From: an uncultured bacterium
GTDB taxonomy: Bacteria; Desulfobacterota_D; UBA1144
Assembly (NCBI GenBank): GCA_913050325.1
Contig: CAJWZP010000004.1
Location: forward strand, 1-64,000
Direction: 5' to 3'
Length of the DNA stretch: 64,000 bases
Under the pieces are notes generated by a model that was not told the origin of the DNA, made no database searches, and worked only from the letters and a program-made list of their open reading frames with translations. Positions 17,113 to 23,313 of this stretch are shown in pieces. The stretch's first letter is position 1, and each line of letters starts with the position of its first letter. Position numbers and translations under genes: made by a program.

Positions 17113-17209
17113 TTACTTTTTAGTTAGTATGTTACTTTTTTTATACTACTATCTTTTTTGTTAATAAATGGTTAATATTTTGTAAATTAATTTTATGGAG
17201 GTTGTTATT

Positions 17210-18604
17210 ATGGGAATGACAGCAGATCAAACTTTCTATCCTACGCCAAAAATGGCTATGGAAGCGCCACCTGAAGAGGTAGCATATATTGCAACATTGA
17301 ATGTTCATGGAAAACCAGATTCACTTTGTACAGTTGATGTGAATCCAAATTCATCTGATTATTTAAAAACAGTTAGTGAGTTGAGTTTGCCAAATATTGG
17401 TGATGAATTACATCATTTCGGATGGAATGCATGTAGTGCTCATTTATGTCCTTACAACCCTCATCCAGATGTAGAGAGGAGATATTTATTAATTCCTGGT
17501 CTAAGATCTTCAAGACTTTACATTGTAGATACAAAAGATGATCCTAGAAATCCAAAAATAATTAAAACTATCGAACCTGAAGAACTTATGGAAAAAACTG
17601 GATACAGTAGACCTCACACTATTCATTGTGGTCCAGAAGGAATTTATGTAAGTGCTCTAGGAGGTGGATCTAAAACTGGAGAAGGTCCAGGCGGGATTTT
17701 TCTAATAGATCATTTAACACTAGACATAAAAGGTCAATGGGAAAATGATAGAGGTTCTCAATACTATGCATATGATTTTTGGTGGCATTTAGGCCATGAT
17801 AGAGTTGTAACATCAGAATGGGCAACTCCTGATTTATTTGAAAATGGACTTAATCTTGAAGCTGCAGTTGGCGGTAAATATGGTCATAAACTACATATAT
17901 GGGACTTAAAAACACATAATCATCTACAGGAACTAGATTTAGGAAAAGAAAACCAAATGGTTCTTGAGTTAAGACCTTCAAAAAATCCAAAGAATACATA
18001 TGGATTTGTTGGCGTTGTAGTAAACACTCAAGACTTATCAGCTTCAATTTGGACCTGGTATTTAGATAAAGGTGAATGGAAAATTCAGAAAACTATTACA
18101 ATTCCTGCACAGCCTGCAGCGGCTGAAGATCTACCAGCACCACTTAAACAATTTGGTGCAGCTCCTCCCCTAATCACTGATATTAATTTATCTCTAGATG
18201 ATAAATTTTTATATGTATCATGCTGGGGAACTGGTGAGCTACATCAATATGATGTTAGTGATCCATTTAATCCAAAACAAACTGGATTAATAGAAATTGG
18301 TGGAGTTGCTAAGAAGAAGGCTCATCCTTCAGGAGCTCCAGCTTCTGGTGGCCCTCAGATGGTTGAGTTGAGCAGAGATGGTAAAAGAGTATATTTTACC
18401 AATTCTTTATATAGCAGCTGGGATGATCAATTTTATGATGATATAAAAGGATGGTTTGTTAAAGCTGATGTTAGTGAAAACGGTGGTTTTGAATTAGATA
18501 AAGATTTCTTTATGGATTTTGGAGATCAAAGAACACACCAAGTAAGACTACAAGGTGGTGACTCTTCATCTGATTCATTCTGTTTTCCAAACGAAGAAAA
18601 TTAA
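17210..18604 (+). CDS. Selenium-binding protein 56 / methanethiol oxidase family protein
   Basis: DELHHFGWNACSAHLCPYNPHPDVERRYLLIPGLRSSRLYIVDTKDDP, HTIHCGPEGIYVSALG, GAPASGGPQMVELSRDGKRVYFTNSLY; GGAGG precedes ATG at 17210. Confidence 0.92.
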   Translation: MGMTADQTFYPTPKMAMEAPPEEVAYIATLNVHGKPDSLCTVDVNPNSSDYLKTVSELSLPNIGDELHHFGWNACSAHLCPYNPHPDVERRYLLIPGLRSSRLYIVDTKDDPRNPKIIKTIEPEELMEKTGYSRPHTIHCGPEGIYVSALGGGSKTGEGPGGIFLIDHLTLDIKGQWENDRGSQYYAYDFWWHLGHDRVVTSEWATPDLFENGLNLEAAVGGKYGHKLHIWDLKTHNHLQELDLGKENQMVLELRPSKNPKNTYGFVGVVVNTQDLSASIWTWYLDKGEWKIQKTITIPAQPAAAEDLPAPLKQFGAAPPLITDINLSLDDKFLYVSCWGTGELHQYDVSDPFNPKQTGLIEIGGVAKKKAHPSGAPASGGPQMVELSRDGKRVYFTNSLYSSWDDQFYDDIKGWFVKADVSENGGFELDKDFFMDFGDQRTHQVRLQGGDSSSDSFCFPNEEN

Positions 18605-18612
18605 GATCAGCA

Positions 18613-19215
18613 ATGGATCATTTTCATTACGGTTTTTTTATACTCTTAGGGTTATATCATGGGGTCAATCCTGGAATGGGTTGGCTCTTTAGTGTTGCAA
18701 TTGCAATGCAAAGAGAATCAACTAAGACAATATTTGTTAGCCACCTACCTATCGCTATTGGCCATTTATTATCTTTGATTGCAACAATTGTTATTTATTA
18801 CTTAATAAGTGACATAATAACTCCAAAAGTTAGTAAGGTTTTTTTTAGTCTTTTATTGATCGGCTTTGGTGTTTATAAATTAATAGATAGAAGTCATTTC
18901 ACATGGACAAAAATGAATGTAAATAACTATGACCTTGCATTATGGTCTTTTCTTATGGCTTCTTCTCATGGTGCCGGTTTAATGCTCATACCTGGATTTA
19001 ATTATGAGGGTGACCACATGATACATCATCTTGAACATTTTGGGTTTTTAGCCTTAGGTGTTCATACATTGGCAATGCTTATCACTTCAATTATTTTAGC
19101 TTTCACTGTTTACAAACTTATAGGATTAAGGATTTTAAGATCAAGCTGGATAAATTTTGATTATATATGGTCTTTTGTATTAATTATTGGTGGACTTTTT
19201 ATATTCTTTGTTTAA
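18613..19215 (+). CDS. Membrane protein with LGLYHGVNPGMGWLF motif, His-rich TM faces
   Basis: Multi-pass hydrophobic ORF 8 bp after the SBP56 gene; HGVNPGMGW and DHMIHHLEHFG motifs. Confidence 0.65.
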   Translation: MDHFHYGFFILLGLYHGVNPGMGWLFSVAIAMQRESTKTIFVSHLPIAIGHLLSLIATIVIYYLISDIITPKVSKVFFSLLLIGFGVYKLIDRSHFTWTKMNVNNYDLALWSFLMASSHGAGLMLIPGFNYEGDHMIHHLEHFGFLALGVHTLAMLITSIILAFTVYKLIGLRILRSSWINFDYIWSFVLIIGGLFIFFV

Positions 19216-19572
19216 TTGATATTTTTTTTTAATATTTACAATAACTCTTTTGGGGTTAAACTTGGTTTCAAAAATAATACAAGGATAGGAAACAACTGCC
19301 TTAGAAATTTTATTTTCTTTAATTTCATCAAGATTAATATATAAAATATTTTTCCTAATTTCATAAGATGAAAATCTATAAAAATATCTAGGGCTTGGTC
19401 TGGATCCATCAAAAATAATAATTTTATTGTTCTTTATTACTAAATCAACGTTCTCATATTTTATTGAGCAATTATTTTCTGATGATAATACATTTATTTT
19501 ATTTGTTTCGTTACAAGATAAAATTAAAAAGAAAAATAATAGCAATTTTTTAAAAATTATTTTTGACCTCAA
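19180..19572 (-). CDS. Small lipoprotein, unknown (AMIN-like C-terminal strand motif)
   Basis: Lipobox-like FLILSC; ends RVIVNIKKKYQL. Confidence 0.45.
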   Translation of the reverse strand: MRSKIIFKKLLLFFFLILSCNETNKINVLSSENNCSIKYENVDLVIKNNKIIIFDGSRPSPRYFYRFSSYEIRKNILYINLDEIKENKISKAVVSYPCIIFETKFNPKRVIVNIKKKYQLNKEYKKSTNN

Positions 19573-21949
19573 CTAACAAAATTTTATGACTGTTTTTACT
19601 TATATGGCCACCATTTTCGATTAATAGACCGCCGAGTTTGTATTCTAAAGTTCCATTAACTAAATTATATGAAACTTCATAATTAATTTCTCTTGAATCT
19701 GGCTCCAAATCATATTTTATTTTTTCACCATATATATTCCCACTAGAGTCTGCAAATTTAGGAATATCTAGAGAAAAAGAGCCACTATTTGCTCTAAGAG
19801 GCTGATGAATCAATAATGAAATAAAATTATCTGAATGATGATTAATAAGTTTCTCTATTACTAAAAACCAAGACGAAGTGCGAATATTATCAAAATTTGA
19901 AAACATCGATTCATTATCAGTATCAATATTCGTATTTGCAAAGAAAAAATTTGCTGAAAATTTATAAGTATTTATTGAATTTGAATATGAAACTGATAAA
20001 AAGTTTGTTTTTGAGTCTTTAATTGTAAAGGCGCCTGAGGACATAGATCCTAGAAAAGATGTTGGCTCATAAAATAATCCATATTCTATGCCAAATGTAG
20101 AGTTGTCTGATTTAAATTCTATTTTAGACAGTCCTAAATATGAATTATTTTGTTTAAAATTTTTTTTATTATAATCATATGGGATCTGGGTTTCAAAAAA
20201 TAAATTATATGAAAATATATCTGAAAATTCTTTTGAGAAGTTAAAACTTTGAGAAATTCCATTTAAAGCTATTAAAGGATTTTGAAATGATTGATTTGTA
20301 TAAAAATAATCAAATTCTCTTTCAGAGGTAAGGTTAAAGAATGTATTTGAATAACTATAATTATATGAAAAATTGAAGGTTGAATCTATATAATTAATAC
20401 TAAAATTATTAAAATAATTGTTGTTATAATTATCAAACAAATCTATGTCTTTAAAATTATAGTCTTCAACAAATTCTATATAAATATTTTTTGTCAAAAA
20501 AACTCTATTTTGGAATGTATTATCAAAAAAAATTAATTTTTCTAAATTAGAACCTTGATATTTATCGCCTTCTATAAAATTAGATAAACTTAAATAAAAT
20601 GTAGCATTATCATATGAGTCAAAAACCGCAACCATTGAAGAAAGTGAATCAAATAAATTAGATTGTTTTTTAACTTTATTATTTTTAATAACTCTGGTAC
20701 CAAATACATTTGAAAATTTTATTTTTGAATTATTCACATTATGGAATTGTGAATTATTAAAATTATTACCTGCTGTAGATAGTGATAAGACTTCAATAGG
20801 TTTTGTGGCAGAATCTAAATCAAGCTTTCCATGACCAAATACTGCAGATGAATATGAGTTTCCATCTGTATCAGTTAAGCCATCTGTAGAAGCAGTTGTA
20901 AGGAGTCTATCAACTATTTGCTCAGCGCTCAGAGTTGGAAAAGTCTCTATTAATACTGCTATAGCACCTGTGACATGAGGAGCAGCCATAGATGTGCCAC
21001 TAAGACTTGTATAACCCGAATTATCATCTTCGTCTGCACTCAAAATTGACACTCCTGGAGCAGCTATACACCAATCTGCTGCGACTCCGCATCTATTTGA
21101 AAAATTTGCCTCATTTCCGTTTGTATCTATTGCCATCACAGCAATCCATAACTCCTTAATATTCGTATAATGATAAGGTAAACCTGATCTTACAGAGGGT
21201 TGAGTTGCATAATCGTTCCCAGTTGCCCAAACCTGGATTATATTATTGCTTACCATACTTTCATAACCATCAACCTCTGTACTAATAGAAGCCTCAATAG
21301 TTGACTTATTAACACTTGTTACTGCTGTTGTACCACCCCAACTGTGGTTAGCTACTTTTACATTTGCACTAATAGCTCTATTTGATGCATCTTGAATAAC
21401 CGTGTTAGTTCCTGCATCAACAAAAAAACCATCATCCTTAAGTATTTGATATGATTGTATAGAAGTTACTCCATAAGCTATTCCGTGCATTCCAGTATCA
21501 TTTTTATTTGCAGATATTATTCCTGTAACATGCGTTCCGTGTCCATCTTGATCCTGAATGGTTGAATTAGAGTCTTGATAATTATATCCACTAATATTTT
21601 TTCCAGAAAATTCAGTGTGCGAGGTATTAATGCCAGTATCAAAAACACCTACTACTGTTCCTTCACCAGATAATTCTCTTGAATAAGCATCTGAGGAATT
21701 TGAATCACCTACACCATAGTTATATTGATATTCAGATGTTTCATAAATACTACTTGACTGACGAGCAGGATAGCAACCAGAGTAAGTACTACCATTATAT
21801 GAACAAGCAGCAGAGCCAGAATTAATTCCAGAAGAACCACCACCACCTGAGCATCCAAATAACATTAAAGATAAAAATATGAAAATTATAAATTTAATAC
21901 TTTCTGATATATTTAGATGTTTTTTTGGAAAAAAATTCACCATTATCAA
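19550..21949 (-). CDS. S8 subtilisin-like serine protease with lipobox and C-terminal autotransporter-like beta-barrel
   Basis: Triad motifs VVGVFDTGIN, GHGTHVTGI, LSGTSMAAPHVTGA; LMLFGCSGGGGSS lipobox; Asn/Phe/Tyr-rich strand region ending ILLVEVKNNF. Confidence 0.85.
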   Translation of the reverse strand: MIMVNFFPKKHLNISESIKFIIFIFLSLMLFGCSGGGGSSGINSGSAACSYNGSTYSGCYPARQSSSIYETSEYQYNYGVGDSNSSDAYSRELSGEGTVVGVFDTGINTSHTEFSGKNISGYNYQDSNSTIQDQDGHGTHVTGIISANKNDTGMHGIAYGVTSIQSYQILKDDGFFVDAGTNTVIQDASNRAISANVKVANHSWGGTTAVTSVNKSTIEASISTEVDGYESMVSNNIIQVWATGNDYATQPSVRSGLPYHYTNIKELWIAVMAIDTNGNEANFSNRCGVAADWCIAAPGVSILSADEDDNSGYTSLSGTSMAAPHVTGAIAVLIETFPTLSAEQIVDRLLTTASTDGLTDTDGNSYSSAVFGHGKLDLDSATKPIEVLSLSTAGNNFNNSQFHNVNNSKIKFSNVFGTRVIKNNKVKKQSNLFDSLSSMVAVFDSYDNATFYLSLSNFIEGDKYQGSNLEKLIFFDNTFQNRVFLTKNIYIEFVEDYNFKDIDLFDNYNNNYFNNFSINYIDSTFNFSYNYSYSNTFFNLTSEREFDYFYTNQSFQNPLIALNGISQSFNFSKEFSDIFSYNLFFETQIPYDYNKKNFKQNNSYLGLSKIEFKSDNSTFGIEYGLFYEPTSFLGSMSSGAFTIKDSKTNFLSVSYSNSINTYKFSANFFFANTNIDTDNESMFSNFDNIRTSSWFLVIEKLINHHSDNFISLLIHQPLRANSGSFSLDIPKFADSSGNIYGEKIKYDLEPDSREINYEVSYNLVNGTLEYKLGGLLIENGGHISKNSHKILLVEVKNNF

Positions 21950-22373
21950 AATTATAAATAATATTTTTTAAAGTTGTTTTTTTTCTAAACCTTTTTTTTA
22001 TTCTCAGCATCCAAGGGTCATAGGAAGAATCATGGTTTTCTATTATTTCACCATAAGACCATACTGATATTGCTTTAGACCCATCAAGAAAGTGATATTC
22101 TGCTGTTCCATGCTCTTTCCCTTCAATCCAATTACATTTAATGAATTCACCTGAAGAATATATCATCTTACCTACTCCGTGTTGTTTTCCGTTTTTCCAT
22201 TCACCGTAATATTTAGATCCGTCAGAGTATTTATAAATACCTTTTCCTTCTCTACGTCCATTTTTATACAGTCCAATATAACTTTCCCCATTTGAATACT
22301 TCACGAGTCCCAATCCAGAAAGTTTTCCAGACATATTTTTTATTCCTAACTTTAGAATAATTTTTTTTGACAT
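21894..22373 (-). CDS. MORN repeat protein
   Basis: Repeats GLGLVKYSNGESYIGLYKNGRREGKGIYKYSDGSKYYGEWKNGKQHGVGKMIYSSGEF. Confidence 0.88.
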   Translation of the reverse strand: MSKKIILKLGIKNMSGKLSGLGLVKYSNGESYIGLYKNGRREGKGIYKYSDGSKYYGEWKNGKQHGVGKMIYSSGEFIKCNWIEGKEHGTAEYHFLDGSKAISVWSYGEIIENHDSSYDPWMLRIKKRFRKKTTLKNIIYNFDNGEFFSKKTSKYIRKY

Positions 22374-22618
22374 TAATCTCCTCCTCCAATATCAAAAAAT
22401 AAATTTTTTCTTATCAGCGTCGTTCCACAATCATCACAATATGAAATTTTTGAAAACTCTTCTTTTGTAAAATGATTAATTTTTTTAATTTTTTTTGGAG
22501 CATCCTTAAAGACCATACAATTAAGACAATAGTTTTTTCTTAAAGAATCTTTGGATGTAAAAGTAATATGCGGTAAAGAAAGTTTTATATTTTTATTAGT
22601 TTTTTTATGATTAGTTAT
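22373..22618 (-). CDS. Putative small zinc-ribbon protein without canonical start codon
   Basis: Open frame ITNHKKTNKNIKLSLPHITFTSKDSLRKNYCLNCMVFKDAPKKIKKINHFTKEEFSKISYCDDCGTTLIRKNLFFDIGGGD*; TAATG overlap with the MORN gene; AGGAG upstream but no ATG/GTG/TTG at the expected start. Confidence 0.45.
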   Translation of the reverse strand: MTNHKKTNKNIKLSLPHITFTSKDSLRKNYCLNCMVFKDAPKKIKKINHFTKEEFSKISYCDDCGTTLIRKNLFFDIGGGD

Positions 22619-22702
22619 TTTTTAATACTCCTAACCCCTATAAAACCATACTAATAAAAAAAATTATGAAAGTCTACAAAAATTTTAAAAAGTAAAAAAG
22701 GC

Positions 22703-22782
22703 AAAAAAAAAGATTGAGTTTTAGTGCTAATCTCTTAGCTTTCTACGTGATCCAATCAATATTGAATCTAACTCAACCTGAT
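22703..22782 (-). ncRNA. Predicted ~80-nt structured small RNA with own promoter and intrinsic terminator
   Basis: Promoter on minus strand: TTGATA (22817-22812), 17-nt spacer, TATACT (22794-22789). RNA: 9-bp closing stem (22778-22770/22720-22712), hairpin A 8 bp with AUUG loop (22768-22749), hairpin B GCUAA-GAGA-UUAGC (22739-22726), then U9 (22711-22703). Confidence 0.7.
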
Positions 22783-22932
22783 GCATACAGTATAAAGGAT
22801 AATTAAACGAATATCAACAAGAAATGTAAAATAATTGTAAGTAGCTTAAATTGTTGATTTTTTATGTAATTTAAATTATCTATTGAAATTAAAAAAAGAA
22901 TTACTAACTTATAATAATGGAGGTAAAAAATT

Positions 22933-23313
22933 ATGAACATGATTTTACGAGATCACTTTTTTGATAGTTTTTTCAACAATTTTGGTAAATTTGAAAGAGA
23001 TATCTCTCATTATGATATTATTGAAAATGAGGAATCTTTTAACATTCAGATCGAACTGGCTGGTATAAGAAAAGAGCATCTTTCAATAAAAGTTCATGAA
23101 AGTCACCTCATCATAAAAGCTGATAACAAAAAAGCAAATGAAAAAGTTGATGGTGATTACAGAGTGCATAAAAGATATGAAAAATCTTTTAAACTTCACT
23201 CGGATATAGATCAAGAGAAAATATCATGCAAATTAGAAAATGGTATTTTATCAATAAACCTTCCAAAGTTCGAAAAAAGACAGCCAAAAGAAATTAAAGT
23301 CGAAGTAAAATAA
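22933..23313 (+). CDS. Hsp20/alpha-crystallin small heat-shock protein
   Basis: FNIQIELAGIRKEHLSIKVHESHLIIKADNK...ISCKLENGILSINLPK; GGAGG upstream. Confidence 0.93.
   Translation: MNMILRDHFFDSFFNNFGKFERDISHYDIIENEESFNIQIELAGIRKEHLSIKVHESHLIIKADNKKANEKVDGDYRVHKRYEKSFKLHSDIDQEKISCKLENGILSINLPKFEKRQPKEIKVEVK

Follow-up and report, generated by a model that had tools for sequence, protein, structure and literature searches.

The window, the whole stretch of 64,000 nucleotides analyzed from an uncultured pelagic Dadabacterium (UBA1144), contains a predicted small RNA gene between a divergent Hsp20 gene and a zinc-ribbon/MORN/S8 gene series. The Hsp20 gene is encoded on the plus strand (22933-23313). 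On the minus strand follow a zinc-ribbon-like ORF with two CxxC pairs (22373-22621), a MORN gene (21894-22373) and an S8 peptidase gene (19550-21949). These neighbors had been named in an earlier note, made by a model from the sequence without database searches, and the genes were confirmed. In the window the zinc-ribbon-like ORF lacks an ATG start; its homologue in L083 does begin with ATG, and the start codon or frame in the window is uncertain. Further along, the plus strand (17195-19215) carries a gene for an SBP56 (selenium-binding, methanethiol oxidase-like) protein, followed by one for a 200-aa probable membrane protein. The latter had no Pfam match, and in several relatives (L083, L085, L092) the SBP56 pair is likewise found close to the RNA.

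The RNA gene was read directly from the minus strand (22817-22703), on which a promoter, a three-way-junction RNA and a U9 tract are all present. The promoter consists of a -35 box TTGATA (22812-22817), an N17 spacer and a -10 box TATACT (22789-22794), and the predicted +1 is at 22782. The letters given in the earlier note for these elements were correct. Between 22350 and 22950 the minus strand contains a single promoter-like site, with 10/12 matches, and in this AT-rich DNA such sites are no more common than in shuffled sequence. As the site alone is statistically ordinary, support for the promoter comes from its retained position: of the 14 other host copies scanned, 11 have TTGACA or TTGACT at almost the same distance, and the exceptions are G007b, G006 and one inner tandem copy of G003.

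The predicted transcript of ~80 nt (22703-22782, minus strand) is closed by helix P1, in which GGUUGAGUU (22770-22778) and AACUCAAUC (22712-22720) form 9 pairs; this closing stem is also the terminator stem. Helix P2 has 8 pairs between GAUUCAAU (22761-22768) and AUUGGAUC (22749-22756). It is followed by the junction strand J2/3, ACGUAGAAA (22740-22748), with the near-invariant part ACGNAGAAA. The P3 hairpin GCUAA-GAGA-UUAGC (22726-22739) has 5 pairs, between 22739-22735 and 22730-22726, and a GAGA loop (22734-22731). The junction strand J3/1, ACUAA (22721-22725), leads back into P1, and the U9 tract (22703-22711) ends the transcript. When the 80 nt were folded with RNAfold, the minimum free energy and centroid structures were both identical to the three-way junction that the earlier note had drawn by eye. 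The fold energy was -21.2 kcal/mol (z -3.89), which none of 200 shuffles equaled, and the opposite (plus) strand folded to just -11.2 kcal/mol. G-U pairs outnumbered A-C mismatches on the minus strand (43 versus 17), which favors this strand as the RNA strand. A DNA-level hairpin was rejected on the same excess and on the poor fold of the opposite strand. A plain terminator scan called no terminator, as P1 encloses a loop of 49 nt.

For the comparison with relatives, the 14 genomes of the family were used, which are the whole order in the genome set and belong to genera g1 (that of the window) to g5. The RNA was found in 13 of them, in 17 copies with 86-100% identity. The assembly of the remaining genome (G001) consists of 40 contigs and is 90% complete, so that the absence there is uncertain. 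The mean conservation increased from ~0.4-0.6 in the flanks to 0.83-1.00 across exactly the predicted transcript, and with a 151-base query the matches in most relatives began at most 3 bases from the predicted +1 and stopped just past the U9 tract, which is kept in host copies. Together with covariation in all three helices, described below, these limits support the earlier claim of a small RNA gene. The genome of the window contains a further copy, 96% identical, on contig C3 and adjoining a tRNA-Met gene, and G003 has three copies in tandem. Within the family P2 changes compensatorily and the remainder is almost fixed.

Outside the family, covariance models R1 and R2 were applied to the seven further families of the class, most members of which have larger genomes, and found no convincing copy; two weak R1 matches there (30.7 and 26.8 bits) did not recur with R2. 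A scan of 85,462 prokaryote species genomes, for which the exact 22-base core and no looser pattern was used, returned 13 matches, in marine genomes only and apparently all from this family. The streamlined pelagic Dadabacteria have been the subject of an earlier study (PMC8115339).

As the earlier note had stated, no known RNA family was recognized. At the gathering threshold, Rfam 15 had no family in the window and none in ten viral contigs, and a permissive search, with the window and two phage copies as queries, yielded no meaningful match (best E for the window 0.45). The core sequence was not found in the literature covered, non-subscription journal papers, and within the same literature no title or abstract on structured RNAs, marine small RNAs or Dadabacteria described the RNA. 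It may have been reported before, e.g., among unnamed marine small-RNA groups. A coding ORF had been named in the earlier note as a possible better explanation, and an antisense reading (SANLLAF...) was rejected since it is broken by stops in 9 of 28 sequences and paired changes alter its residues. Given the lack of a catalogued match and the recurrence of nearly the same core in almost all sequenced open-ocean Dadabacteria and in three kinds of marine phage, described below, the three-armed RNA has probably not been described before and probably has a real job.

Copies of the RNA were also present in marine viruses, which goes beyond the earlier note. The exact 22-base core occurred in 34 IMG/VR contigs. 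With looser patterns 54 marine viral loci, counted as contigs, were confirmed by R2 at E < 2e-8, and the next match had an E of 0.03. Other pattern matches (L095, L114-L117 and L120-L134) were discarded, as their R2 scores were those of chance. Each of the 20 whole viral records examined had exactly one copy. When the loci were read, the phage contexts sorted into three unrelated types: siphophage-like (A), podophage-like (B) and T4-like (C). In type A (35 loci) the RNA lies 3' of the major head protein gene (phrog_1005) and 5' of an HNH endonuclease or glycosyltransferase gene. In type B (14 loci) it is antisense to the genes, flanked by an exonuclease gene (phrog_2139) and a small ORF. Among cultured phages Pelagibacter phage Baldr is closest to type B; it has podophage-type tail tubular proteins and an exonuclease with 63.5% identity. 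In type C (5 loci) it precedes the tail-tube gene, and the nearest cultured phages are Melnitz and HTVC008M. The sequences of P1 and P2 in phages differ from those of the hosts with the pairing retained, and the U9 tract is missing behind P1. The type A start codon (e.g., L061:10497-10530) often lies in a small hairpin, UUAC-CAUGA-GUAA or UAAC-CAUGA-GUUA, the arms of which covary; this hairpin has no obvious Shine-Dalgarno sequence and pairs in some copies and not in others.

R2 detected no copy in the whole genome of Baldr and no convincing match in ~23-25 kb stretches each of HTVC008M and Melnitz-3 (best 19.9 bits). Blastn of host and phage copies against cultured phages gave chance-length matches only. 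No tRNA genes that could hint at the host were found in the phage loci, and the type A capsid gene, searched as a prophage check, was not found in Dadabacteria genomes. Judged by the shared RNA these phages may infect Dadabacteria, while in types B and C the proteins resemble those of SAR11 and Methylophilales phages; the closest cultured relatives of these two types infect Pelagibacter or Methylophilales, not Dadabacteria.

A gap-free alignment of 28 distinct host and phage sequences was used to examine the covariation on which the earlier note had made its structure depend. In 20 of the 23 pairs, spread over all three helices, both sides had changed, and the covariation score was 0.523, compared with 0.191 ± 0.016 for shuffled and at most 0.211 for slid alignments. 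The P3 stem alone occurs as GCUAA/UUAGC, GCCAA/UUGGC, GUUAG/CUGAC, GCAAA/UUUGC, GUUAA/UUAAC and GUCAA/UUGAC. Fixed or nearly so are the ACGNAGAAA strand, the ACUA of J3/1 and the GNGA pattern of the loop; among the paired positions this holds for two A-U pairs in P2 and, in P3, for the first G-C pair and the inner A-U pairs. The constraint sits in the junction and the loop and not in the sequence of the helices, a feature not noticed in the earlier note. Two scans of the same viral collection with the junction positions relaxed added one real variant form (L118/L119), with G for the first A. As the relaxed scans yielded only this form, the near-invariant core is not a mere artefact of the search.

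Our main reading, to which we assign a probability of about 0.5, is that the RNA represents a new family of free-standing structured small RNAs that act in trans through a binding site formed by the junction, phages having a copy of their own. In pelagic Dadabacteria the RNA would be transcribed from its own sigma-70-type promoter, and the transcript would be ended by its own closing helix P1 with the U9 tract. P2 and P3 are probably packed next to each other, and the GNGA loop of P3 may dock on the conserved A-U pairs of P2. This packing would bring the ACGNAGAAA and ACUA strands together into a pocket that may bind a cellular factor, either a protein or a small molecule, which the RNA would hold or present in trans. 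The phage copies would be explained most simply if phages of three unrelated types, with one copy each, meet the same factor in the host and gain by supplying a copy of their own. Four observations count against this reading: a same-direction gene follows the RNA in type A phages, as would be expected for a cis element; P1 is nearly constant in hosts though pairing would permit change; the closest cultured relatives of type B and C phages have hosts other than Dadabacteria; and the search for a Dadabacteria prophage with the type A capsid gene found none.

The gene neighborhoods in the hosts bear on whether the RNA stands alone. In the window's genus (g1) it lies within the hsp20/zinc-ribbon/MORN/S8/SBP56 region. 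In g2-g5 it is convergent with cysH and the accompanying PHO4-type permease gene, facing them at the 3' end, in g4 it faces a complete cysD-cysN-permease-cysH series, and in g2-g4 it is mostly behind a membrane-protein gene (LPG_synthase_TM where tested, L087). One genome (G007) has a copy at each kind of site, the sulfate-assimilation genes and the SBP56-operon end. The cysD/cysH genes (PF01507; L087:3466-7205 and equivalents) are present in g2-g5 and G004 and below the cut-off as such in G000-G003, where the PAPS-reductase family is missing or marginal. Within g1, sulfate assimilation was apparently lost, a loss also seen in other streamlined marine bacteria. The RNA thus outlives its neighbors and is the leader of no single operon. 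From sequence and conservation, it has its own promoter, an intrinsic terminator and no ORF, as a free-standing small RNA gene does.

The main rival is a riboswitch-like attenuator acting on the RNA's own terminator, in which a metabolite bound by the junction stabilizes P1 and hence the P1-U9 terminator; read-through would serve the zinc-ribbon/MORN/S8 operon in the window and elsewhere yield a transcript antisense to cysH or to the SBP56 operon. P1 does double as terminator stem and closing helix, the junction resembles an aptamer in being near-invariant while its helices are free, the RNA faces the cysH end in g2-g5 and in G007 also the SBP56-operon end, and many type A phages have an AUG 16-21 bases past the end of the core. 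However, no close gene on the same strand follows the RNA in g2-g5, and it persists in G000-G003 without cysD and cysH. The phage gene behind the RNA varies, with the AUG at 16 to ~270 bases, type B copies are antisense, and the phage genes share no metabolic theme. A constant position upstream of functionally related genes, as for a cis-acting riboswitch, was found neither in g2-g5 nor in the phages. We consider the attenuator unlikely on the whole; the window's genus is the only one in which the zinc-ribbon/MORN/S8 operon could be attenuated by it. Of the two options in the earlier note, a free small RNA or an operon leader with an attenuator, the former thus gained support and the latter fits the window's genus only, with g2-g5 speaking against it.

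The constant sequence of P1 in hosts could reflect a base-pairing target, and the RNA might be a regulator that reaches mRNA targets through P1 or the junction strand. Host copies from five genera have an identical P1 GGUUGAGUU, which the P1 of type B phages closely resembles, and the anatomy of the gene is that of an sRNA. Against this, P1 sequences of type A phages are quite different with an unchanged core, and the conserved single strand is just 9 nt long and lies within the junction. Furthermore, Hfq (PF17209) was found in none of the 14 family genomes, in a search whose control was positive in 5 of 14 known genomes. We regard base pairing as improbable.

Purine and c-di-GMP-I riboswitch aptamers are three-way junctions with docked arms. 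The RNA shares with them a compact junction, near-invariant strands, free helices and a GNRA-type loop with possible docking to the adjacent helix; it differs in having no Rfam match, in being free-standing with its own terminator in hosts and in lacking a common downstream gene. Three helices around a near-invariant core, scattered over unrelated places in phages, would also suit a new class of small self-cleaving ribozyme. Hammerhead ribozymes have the core strands CUGANGA, GAAA and NUH, and like related small ribozymes they share with the RNA three stems around a conserved core and presence in phages. In contrast, the core strands here are ACGNAGAAA and ACUA, which are not those of the hammerhead, Rfam had no ribozyme match, and the host copies are complete promoter-terminator units. 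Self-cleavage appears very unlikely. The L11-binding (GTPase-centre) three-way junction of 23S rRNA has the stretch AGAAAGC...GC...CACU and a GUAAUA loop. The RNA has such a stretch in its junction, which is a lead only, and it differs in lacking the GUAAUA loop and any Rfam rRNA match.

A phage-spread mimic of the counter-defence or antitoxin type would be a copy of a host RNA whose role is to neutralize a host protein. It would account for the core shared by host and phage RNAs, for the single copy in each phage record and for the variable helices. A precedent is pseudo-ToxI of phage PhiTE, a phage-brought copy of a host RNA (PMC3475682). Unlike ToxI, the RNA has no tandem short repeats, and it is near-universal in its family, which most defence systems are not. 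No ToxN-like gene was seen among the host-locus neighbors submitted to Pfam, a part of those read at 14 loci, and no constant toxin-like partner gene lies beside the host copies. This explanation has little probability in our view.

Where helices covary freely around a near-invariant junction, the RNA family has often turned out to bind a ligand or to be catalytic. The RNA is near-universal in an abundant uncultured ocean clade and absent from its relatives, and it is carried by siphophage-, podophage- and T4-like viruses. It is a tentative suggestion, held with less confidence than the reading of a free-standing, trans-acting RNA, that three unrelated phage types carry an undescribed class of riboswitch, ribozyme or protein-binding RNA that would act on a factor of one streamlined marine host clade, and that they would be the first phages of pelagic Dadabacteria. 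The RNA might serve to mark phages whose hosts have none in culture, and with 67 nt it is a small, defined object for binding and cleavage tests.

Immediately 3' of the U9 tract, the minus strand contains a GCC-T6 sequence (22694-22702) that is conserved alongside the RNA. It is kept in nearly all host copies of the five genera, though it lies past the predicted terminator, and may represent a second U-tract or have a role for the opposite strand.
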